Assembly (NCBI GenBank): GCA_937981585.1
Contig: CALJOA010000034.1
Coordinates: 38,427 to 102,426 of the forward strand
From: an uncultured Pirellulaceae bacterium
GTDB lineage: Bacteria > Planctomycetota > Planctomycetia > Pirellulales > Pirellulaceae
Length of the DNA: 64,000 bases
Direction of reading: 5' to 3'
Position 1 is the first letter of the stretch. Each line of letters begins with the position of its first letter. Below the pieces are notes generated by a model, which did no database searches, was not told where the DNA came from, and was given only the letters and a program-made list of their open reading frames with translations. Position numbers and translations under genes: made by a program. This document shows, piece after piece, positions 58,322 to 61,456 of the stretch.

Positions 58322-59527
58322 CTATTTCTCGAGTTTTGAAGTTTCTTCGACTCCAGAGCTGGCTGAGCCCGCGACGGTGGCAAGACCATGGGTCTCGAGC
58401 AAATTCTTAATGCTCTTGTACTGAGATTTCCAAGCGTCAGGACTGTAGCCGCCTGAGAGTGTCAACACGACTGGCATCTTGCGCTCAATGCAGGCTTGCA
58501 CGATTGCGTGATCCCGTTTGACGATTCCATCGGGCGTCATTTTCAGGCTTGCCAACGGATCGCCGTCGAGCGGGTCGCAGCCGCCGACGATGAAGCAGAT
58601 GTCAGCGTCAGAGCCATCCAAAATTCTGGGAAGATGCTCCGACAGGACTTCCATGTACTGCTCGTCTGTCATTCCTGCATCAAGCTCTACATCAAGATCG
58701 CCGACCTCTTTAGGGATCGGATAGATATCGCCTTGATGCATTGAAAACGTAAACGTTGAATCGTCGTCGGGAAGGCAGACAATGGTGCCATTGCCTTGAT
58801 GAACATCGACATCGATAACGATCGCGCGTTCGATTAGTTTTTCAGATTGGAGTTTTCGTATTGCGATCGGTACGTCAGCGTAGAGACAGAATCCTTCGCC
58901 ACGATCGGGCTTGGCGTGATGGTAGCCACCGCCGATGTTGACGCCGATGCCAGTCGTGAGGGCTGCTCGTGCCGCCAAGATCGTGCCGCCGCTGGCTCGC
59001 CGAAACGGTTCCAGAACGGCTCGGTCAAGCGAAACCGGGGCCATTTGAAGAATCGGAGCTTCGAGATACTGGGCGACTTTCTTTCGCTTTTTCAAGTCAT
59101 CAAGGTACCCCTGAGTATGAATCAGCAGCAGTTCCTCATTGGTCACCGGAGTGGGCTTGAGCGTTTGTTCTTCGGTCAGCAGCCCATCGTTGATCAACGC
59201 ATTGTGGATCTTTTCGTATTTGCGAATATCAAAGGGATGCATCTTTTCCATGCCACCAAGGTCAATCAGATACCCGGGTGAGTAAACGACCGAAACATCA
59301 AATGGAAGATCGGGGTCTACGGTTTCGCTGGGCTCGTCAGATTGTTGTGAGTTGGTTTCGGTGGGCTGGTTCGAATTCACCTCCGTTACTTCAAACGGGG
59401 TTTGCGGCAAGTTGATGAAGACGATCCAGGCGATGATCGCGCCGCAAAAGATGGCAATAGCAGTGAGTATGATTTTCCTCAAATTCGAGTTCGGTTTGGT
59501 TGGCGGTAGGTTGGTTTTGTCTTTCAT
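58322..59527 (-). CDS. Histone deacetylase-family protein with N-terminal TM anchor
   Basis: IGGGYHHAKPDRGEGFCLYADVPIA...AIVIDVDVHQGNGT...LTLSGGY; N-terminal RKIILTAIAIFCGAIIAWIVFIN. Confidence 0.92.
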   Translation of the reverse strand: MKDKTNLPPTKPNSNLRKIILTAIAIFCGAIIAWIVFINLPQTPFEVTEVNSNQPTETNSQQSDEPSETVDPDLPFDVSVVYSPGYLIDLGGMEKMHPFDIRKYEKIHNALINDGLLTEEQTLKPTPVTNEELLLIHTQGYLDDLKKRKKVAQYLEAPILQMAPVSLDRAVLEPFRRASGGTILAARAALTTGIGVNIGGGYHHAKPDRGEGFCLYADVPIAIRKLQSEKLIERAIVIDVDVHQGNGTIVCLPDDDSTFTFSMHQGDIYPIPKEVGDLDVELDAGMTDEQYMEVLSEHLPRILDGSDADICFIVGGCDPLDGDPLASLKMTPDGIVKRDHAIVQACIERKMPVVLTLSGGYSPDAWKSQYKSIKNLLETHGLATVAGSASSGVEETSKLEK

Positions 59528-59684
59528 GTTTACCTCTTAAGGTAGTACCGTCGGCGAAGGCGCTGCGGTGCTGCAAACAGGTTGACTGGCCCTCGCTTCA
59601 TTAATCAGTACCTATTTCAAATCAATACGTTTCACAAAAACCATGCGATTGTTTCGAATTCGTGATTTGAATTAGCTTGTACCA

Positions 59685-59888
59685 AAAAGAAAAAACCGCA
59701 TCCCCGGTTAGGTGGGATGCGGTTTTAAAAAGATACGTCCGAATGAGATAGCGATGGGAGTCGCTGGGAGACAGATGTAAGTCGGACGTGCTAAGCACAA
59801 GCCACTAATGACCTAGATCTACCCTAAAAATTGGTCCCTCAGCCGTCAGTTTCGGAGGTATCCTGTTCGTTATCACAGCAGTGCTGCG
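59685..59888 (-). ncRNA. Candidate structured small RNA with own terminator (6S RNA-like architecture)
   Basis: Reverse strand: GATACcTCCGAA (59862-59851) pairs with TTCGGAcGTATC (59743-59732); nested GCTGAGGGAC/GTCTCCCAGC and AGATCTAGGTC/GACTTACATCT; TATAAC upstream; terminator at 59726-59691. No ORF. Confidence 0.5.
59691..59726 (-). terminator. Strong rho-independent terminator on the minus strand
   Basis: aaaaccgcatccc-cggttaggt-gggatgcggtttt: 13-bp perfect stem; reverse strand continues ttttttcttttt. Confidence 0.85.
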
Positions 59889-60346
59889 TGTTTCGTTATA
59901 TTTTCAATTTGACTTTAAAGCCGCCTTCAAACAAGCTGCTTTGACTTCCAATCATACTTTATGATTGAAATAACGGGGTACAAATATTTATCGACCAACT
60001 GCGTCAACATGTTCGCAAGAAGTCGATAAAAATCAAGCGTACCAGTCATGTTTATTTTTTCGAATAAACCAGACGATAAATCTGTTTTCGGAACTTAACT
60101 CGTTACCACATGTATAGAGTAGGTTTGCGATTGGGTCGACAGGAAAGTGAGCGTATAGCTTACGAACTTCGAAGAAATTCCTTCAAAAAAATGTTTGACT
60201 TTGCTTGATTTTCTTCAAGGCGAACAGTTTGCTGTAGATTGGCAACGCATGATTTGAAGCTTTGATCGGAGCACTAGGTCTGAAGCGGCTTCTGGGTAAC
60301 ATCGGTGTTAGCGGCTGTGCCTTTGCGGTGATGAGTTGGGTTAGCG

Positions 60347-61456
60347 ATGAATGACAAAGACCTCAGCGGTCAACTAGTTGAATCTGCCGATGGCGTGGCC
60401 ATGGACAGGTTGTGCGAACGAATTCGCGACTCCGAAATGCAGCCGCTTGATGTGGGAGACCCGCAGCCGAATCTGTGGCCGGCAAGCCAGTTAAAGTTGA
60501 TGGCCGAGGCAGGCGTTTATCGCTGGTTCGTTCCCCGTTCCGTTGGCGGTTGGCAATGGAGTAGTTCAGAGATCGTTGAAGGGTACATCCGTTTAAGTTC
60601 GGCTTGTCTAACGTCGACTTTTGTTTTGACTCAGCAAGTTGCGGCGCTGACGCGAATTTGCAAGTCGCCCAACGCTGAGCTGCGAGAATCGCTTGTGCCG
60701 GGTTTGCTTTCTGGCGAGCTTAGCTCAACCGTTGGGATTTCACATCTAACGACCAGCCGCCAGCATGTTAAGCGGCCAGCGCTGGGGGCGGTGGCACAGG
60801 CTGACGGCTACCAAGTCGACGGTTTCAGTCCGTGGGTTACAGGTGGATGTGCGGCAACGCATCTTTTGTTGGGCGCCCAGTTAGACGATGGACAGCAGAT
60901 TTTATTTGTCGTGCCTTCGGATGCCAAGGGAATAACGATTGATCCAGGTTTCAAGCTGGTTGGATTGACGGCTTCTCAAACTGGAGCCATTAAATGCGAC
61001 TGCGTCCGAATTAAGCAGTCGGATGTTTTAGCCGGTCCTTGCGAGAACGTGCTGGCGAGTTTGAGTCGTAATTCGACGGGCGGATTTCAGACTTCGTCGT
61101 TGGCGGTTGGGCTGAGTAAAAGTGCAATAGATTTCATCGGGCAACAATCATTTACGCGACGCGATTTGACGGTGACTTTTGAGTCGCTTGAACAACAATA
61201 TGATGAAATCGAATCTCGAATGAAGCAATTGGCTGCGGGGGTAAACGTCTGTACCAACGAAGAATTGCGAGCTCAGGCCAACAGTTTGGTGCTGCGAGCG
61301 ACGCAGTCGGCACTAGTTGCGGCCAAGGGCTCCGGTTACGTTGAAGGACATCCGGTCGGACGCTGGTGTCAAGAAGCCTTGTTCTTTCTCGTTTGGAGTT
61401 GTCCTCAAGCAGTGCTCGACGCGAATTTGTGTGAGTTGGTAGGAATTGAAAGTTAG
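60347..61456 (+). CDS. Acyl-CoA dehydrogenase-fold protein
   Basis: LMAEAGVYRWFVPRSVGGWQWSSSEIVEGYIRLSSACLTSTFVLTQQ...ADGYQVDGFSPWVTGG...VVPSDAKGITIDPGFKLVGLTASQTGAIKCDCVRI. Confidence 0.82.
   Translation: MNDKDLSGQLVESADGVAMDRLCERIRDSEMQPLDVGDPQPNLWPASQLKLMAEAGVYRWFVPRSVGGWQWSSSEIVEGYIRLSSACLTSTFVLTQQVAALTRICKSPNAELRESLVPGLLSGELSSTVGISHLTTSRQHVKRPALGAVAQADGYQVDGFSPWVTGGCAATHLLLGAQLDDGQQILFVVPSDAKGITIDPGFKLVGLTASQTGAIKCDCVRIKQSDVLAGPCENVLASLSRNSTGGFQTSSLAVGLSKSAIDFIGQQSFTRRDLTVTFESLEQQYDEIESRMKQLAAGVNVCTNEELRAQANSLVLRATQSALVAAKGSGYVEGHPVGRWCQEALFFLVWSCPQAVLDANLCELVGIES

Follow-up and report, generated by a model that had tools for sequence, protein, structure and literature searches.

The minus strand of the 819-bp gap between an HDAC-like gene (58322-59527, minus) and an acyl-CoA-dehydrogenase-like gene (60347-61456, plus) carries the elements of a structured RNA, which almost certainly represents a new free-standing RNA family that is absent from Rfam. 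The locus lies in a 64,000-nucleotide stretch of DNA from an uncultured Pirellulaceae bacterium (the window). A preliminary description of this DNA had proposed that a structured sRNA with a 6S-like layout is encoded on the minus strand as a free-standing unit and ends at a terminator of its own, and this proposal is supported by covariation in homologues, by recurrent terminators and by unrelated flanking genes. Its suggestion that the RNA might be 6S RNA did not hold. For the complete explanation we favor, a stand-alone RNA outside Rfam that is bound to a protein and possibly regulates RNA polymerase (RNAP), we estimate a probability of roughly 60%.

Locus and fold of the predicted RNA

Strand, coordinates, terminator, closing stem and the hairpin in the 3' bubble strand can all be read directly in the sequence, as had been described, and the positions of the features are given in Table 1. 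The arms of the apical rod, AGATCTAGGTC (59820..59810) and GACTTACATCT (59783..59773), face each other with one C.C mismatch and one G-U pair. The terminator stem is perfect (59726..59714 with 59704..59692) and is followed by TTTTTTCTTTTT. An A-run and a T-run flank the terminator hairpin (window 59692-59729) on both strands, and judging from these letters the hairpin could also end plus-strand transcription, albeit weakly. RNAfold calculated an energy of -71.8 kcal/mol for the 204-nt segment, whereas its dinucleotide shuffles reached -50.6 ± 4.2 (z = -5.0; 0/200), and thus the fold goes beyond chance. A 58-aa ORF with a GTG start (59622-59798) overlaps the RNA on the same strand, but the covariation of the helices and the varying loop lengths argue against coding.

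The TATAAC hexamer, which had been put forward as promoter, is present at 59900..59895, but it is weak, and a consensus promoter scan returned no sigma-70 site at the locus. When the upstream regions of the homologues were compared, no consistent -10 position was found. The motif GCCGAT was seen upstream in 29 of 99 loci at scattered distances (for instance L234, L094, L119, L210), and in several loci it directly precedes a TAnnnT hexamer (GCCGATAtaat, GCCGATAgaat). Motif and hexamer together could constitute an extended -10 promoter type.

Table 1. Elements of the predicted RNA gene and their positions in the window
Feature	Position	Strand	Basis
Predicted stand-alone ncRNA, about 200 nt	59685..59888	-	5' end inferred from TATAAC, 3' end from terminator
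Closing stem, 5' arm GATACcTCCGAA	59851..59862	-	GATAC-C-TCCGAA read directly; closing stem backed across 100 homologues
Closing stem, 3' arm TTCGGAcGTATC	59732..59743	-	TTCGGA-C-GTATC opposite 5' arm; backed across 100 homologues
Conserved core	59746..59846	-	match of covariance model R1, 111.9 bits
5' bubble strand ACGGCTGAGGGACCAATTTTTA	59825..59846	-	C2, G3, C5, G7, G10, C15 (alignment A4) at least 96% conserved, 100 homologues
First apical helix, 5' side GGG (other lineages: GCG or GGA)	59822..59824	-	100% of cells paired; three pairs changed on both sides
First apical helix, 3' side CCC (other lineages: CGC or UCC)	59766..59768	-	model-aligned homologues
Bulged UCU, 3' side	59769..59771	-	UCU in 92/100 homologues
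Apical rod, 5' side, with C (59816) of C.C mismatch	59810..59820	-	C.C in 94/100 homologues
Apical rod, 3' side, with C (59777) of C.C mismatch	59773..59783	-	opposite 59810..59820
Terminal hairpin GTGC-TTA-GCAC	59788..59798	-	99% of cells paired; double changes in 3/4 pairs
Hairpin in 3' bubble strand, AGCGA-CTCCCA-TCGCT, C-rich loop	59750..59765	-	read directly; covariation
Intrinsic terminator: 13-bp stem, 9-nt loop, T tract	59684..59726	-	read directly; terminator common among homologues
Candidate -10 box TATAAC, weak, without good -35	59895..59900	-	read directly

Compensatory changes among relatives, which the preliminary description had named as a check, are present. When 100 homologues were aligned to the covariance model, 23 of the 25 core pairs had changed on both sides and 92.6% of the cells were paired compared with 76.6% after shuffling, but this alignment was fitted to the model and hence leans towards it. 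An unfitted MAFFT alignment of 32 sequences indicated changes on both sides in 12 of the 25 pairs, and RNAalifold recovered the same helices from the homologues without guidance. For the closing stem we compared flank pairing energies of matched and mismatched genomes, which is independent of any alignment. Here, the mean energy was -22.7 kcal/mol when the 5' and the 3' flank came from one genome and -13.4 ± 0.3 when they came from different genomes. A chance fold is ruled out by the shuffle z-score, the covariation in homologues and this matched/mismatched comparison.

The clearest covariation was observed in the first apical helix, which reads GGG/CCC here, GCG/CGC in most distant members and GGA/UCC in others. 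Closing stem, apical stem and 3' hairpin of the original fold are all backed by covariation. The letters of its middle stem (GCTGAGGGAC/GTCTCCCAGC) are also in place, but no compensatory change was found for it in 32 sequences. According to RNAalifold this stem has to be replaced: the GGG after the A/U-rich stretch pairs with that CCC and leaves UCU bulged, with GC/CG/AU covariation.

In the layout of the family, about 10-18 bp form the closing stem, and the 5' bubble strand is strongly conserved (GGCuGAGGGACCAA in the window, CCGuCGGAGGuGCCAA in distant members). The apical rod begins with GsG/CsC, the bulged UCU and the C.C mismatch and is capped by a GUGC/GCAC hairpin. The 3' strand contains a hairpin whose loop is rich in C, and a terminator completes the layout. 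In 76 of 98 copies (2.6 expected) such a terminator was found in the orientation of the RNA, and since it ends about 63 nt after the core the full length should be near 190-205 nt. The 5' strand contains GGGA, with which the loop of the 3' hairpin may pair. Complementarity between loop and 5' strand was slightly better within than between species (-5.10 compared with -4.63 ± 0.15; 0/300 permutations, with relatedness ignored), and a pseudoknot is possible.

Distribution of the family

Of the 27 further genomes that belong to the window's genus, 24 have a DNA homologue of the segment, as do some genomes of other genera. Together with the window's own, 25 of the 28 genomes of this genus thus carry the new RNA. 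A covariance model built from 32 members (R1) matched 170 of 198 Pirellulales genomes (90 of 103 genera). In a sample of 249 genomes of the phylum it matched all 4 Pirellulales and 11 of the 12 Planctomycetales, and no other convincing match was found elsewhere in this sample. A broader model of the family (R3) matched 89 of 199 genomes of the class, only in Pirellulales and Planctomycetales, and none of these genomes belongs to the families f106-f109. The two order names are our presumed reading, taken from the Pirellulaceae relatives of the neighboring gene and from general knowledge of the class; the order-level grouping that underlies them consists of a "same order" group and family f21.

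The copy number is one in nearly every genome. Second copies were seen in G349 (strong; C56:13216-13317, C208:2463-2564) and in G539 (weak; C1:394492-394586), and a search for plasmid copies yielded none. No family of Rfam 15 matched the RNA; other Rfam families were rejected, since their matches stayed below the gathering scores and fell on one strand or the other or beyond the RNA. An RNA with such a strong structure that is kept as a single copy across two bacterial orders likely plays an important role.

Proposed function and alternative explanations

Because conservation concentrates in bubble, bulge and mismatch and not in an antisense seed, the RNA would probably act in trans, bound to a conserved protein. 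The conservation of the 5' bubble strand, the UCU bulge and the C.C mismatch has no evident explanation in base pairing and suggests that these three features are protein contacts. RNAP is the first candidate for the partner because of the 6S-like geometry and because 6S-shaped RNAs without recognizable 6S ancestry, such as Ms1 and CoRP, can bind this enzyme (PMC11077062, PMC9130861). The new RNA would then be a second RNAP decoy or regulator that is not related to 6S, much like Ms1 or CoRP RNA; it would work alongside 6S where 6S is present and perhaps replace it where it is absent. This choice of partner is derived from the shape and is tentative, being less likely than not. It is opposed by the fact that many lineages with the new RNA carry 6S too, and a single abundant type of RNAP-binding RNA per species has been proposed (PMC11077062). 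Moreover, the bubble would be closed if its 5' strand paired with the 3' loop, which does not suit a mimic of an open promoter. More speculative still is a separate lineage of RNAP-regulating RNAs, unrelated to 6S and to Ms1/CoRP, that would exist beside 6S and would replace lost 6S, for instance in the window's genus. If RNAP is indeed the partner, the RNA would be a second RNAP-binding RNA beside 6S.

The RNA might alternatively be a base-pairing sRNA that attaches to G-rich ribosome-binding sites on mRNAs by its C-rich loop (CUCCCA, UCCACC), with its own GAGGGA/GGAGG strand restraining the loop. C makes up 184 of 353 loop letters, and nearly every member has a C-rich loop. This and the slightly better fit to the 5' strand within species would agree with the idea, but sequence and length of the loop vary (CUCCCA, UCCACUC, UCCAUUU, GCAUCCG), unlike a conserved seed, and most of the conservation is located outside the loop. 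We consider this explanation unlikely.

Another possibility is descent from a 6S duplication, as a 6S-2-like paralogue that has lost sequence similarity. Layout and length are similar, GGG/CCC pairs border the bubble in both RNAs, and Bacillus subtilis is known to carry two 6S copies per genome (PMC11077062). However, covariance models did not indicate similarity in either direction, and the bulged UCU, the C.C mismatch and the bubble sequence are specific for the new family. In our view such a descent is improbable, and the sequences compared here do not support a common ancestry with 6S.

It is very improbable that the RNA is the canonical 6S RNA of the bacterium, too diverged for Rfam. Its size, closing stem, bubble with 3' hairpin, rod and own terminator would suit this identity. 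With about 180-200 nt it also has the rod shape of 6S, which is made up of a closing stem, a central bubble and a terminal stem, and canonical 6S went undetected in the 28 genomes of the window's genus. However, the Rfam 6S model (RF00013) was applied to the window at its gathering score, to the surroundings of the locus at E <= 10, to the whole genome and to 20 divergent homologue loci at E <= 1, each time without a match. Conversely, R1 found nothing in 25 planctomycete 6S loci at E-values up to 10, and the Pirellulales 6S alignment has no motif block in common with the new family. Most importantly, 30 genomes carry both RNAs, always at separate loci wherever both positions are known. They comprise 11 Planctomycetales (G123, G149, G170, G188, G206, G237, G280, G293, G317, G339, G533) and 19 Pirellulales (G030, G031, G048, G060-G064, G067, G069, G070, G072, G084, G357, G369, G371, G388, G399, G451). 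In G123, for example, 6S is located at C1:1001906 and the new RNA at C1:2602093. The 6S matches are full-length with E-values down to 1e-50, and thus they cannot all be false. Because of the separate loci and the lack of cross-matches between the models, the new RNA is not 6S by identity.

Among 249 Planctomycetota genomes, 115 had an RF00013 match, and among 198 Pirellulales 12 had one. A planctomycete-specific 6S covariance model (R2) detected 6S in 9 of 14 Pirellulales from other families and gave 14 strong matches in 41 Pirellulaceae genera; other genera of the window's family do carry canonical 6S. Many Pirellulales have canonical 6S genes (L141-L152, L153-L175, central ~200-230 nt), mostly below the RF00013 gathering score, and their conserved blocks are TCTGCCATGTTCGTG, GAGCCGATA, CGGGCTCTC and CCACGGCATT. 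In the 28 genomes of the window's genus (G000-G027), the planctomycete 6S model found no canonical 6S in a search that scores only part of its first-look candidates. A search with 6S motif patterns in this genus gave three matches, all without 6S context, and an 18-bit 6S match in G026 was rejected, because it has none of the 6S motifs and lies across a long open frame. According to PMC5673643 (citing Wehner 2014), earlier screens reported 6S as absent from Pirellula, Rhodopirellula and Thermogutta, which would fit genera in which 6S has diverged or is gone. Both the new RNA and the diverged but canonical 6S of many other Pirellulales can now be tested.

At about 70 loci, the nearest predicted ORFs upstream and downstream of the RNA were grouped by similarity into about 80 clusters, which are unrelated and in either orientation; the larger clusters of flanking genes mostly represent single genera. 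One locus, L013, was indexed wrongly in this comparison. Since the flanking genes differ between lineages, the RNA is not the leader of a neighboring gene. As expected for a stand-alone sRNA, it has its own terminator on the RNA strand and no conserved downstream gene, and it is a free-standing gene. A role as cis-acting leader or attenuator of the HDAC-like gene, the start codon of which is located about 160 nt downstream on the same strand with the terminator in between, is hardly credible and was rejected, since relatives have unrelated genes downstream of the RNA, often in the opposite orientation, and none of 10 contigs around homologues of the HDAC-like gene carried a convincing copy of the RNA.

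Comparison with known systems

The Rhodopirellula-1 motif is, like the new RNA, a structured-RNA candidate from Planctomycetes. In PMC2864571 it is assigned to Proteobacteria and Planctomycetes and its table entry has no Rfam number, and the comparison relates to name and spread only.

With 6S/SsrS RNA (RF00013) the new RNA shares the length of about 190-200 nt, the closing stem, the large central bubble, the hairpin-prone 3' bubble strand, the apical rod and the GGG/CCC at the apical edge of the bubble. It differs from 6S in that neither sequence nor covariance models match and in that it is a separate gene in genomes with RF00013-type 6S. In addition, it has another conserved bubble sequence, the UCU bulge, the C.C mismatch and a possible loop pairing that closes the bubble.

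The actinobacterial RNAs Ms1 and CoRP are longer (about 300 and 500 nt; PMC11077062) and stem from another phylum, and their RNAP binding has been demonstrated, whereas that of the new RNA is conjectural. In common with it, they are clade-restricted and 6S-shaped and not homologues of 6S (PMC9130861, PMC11077062).
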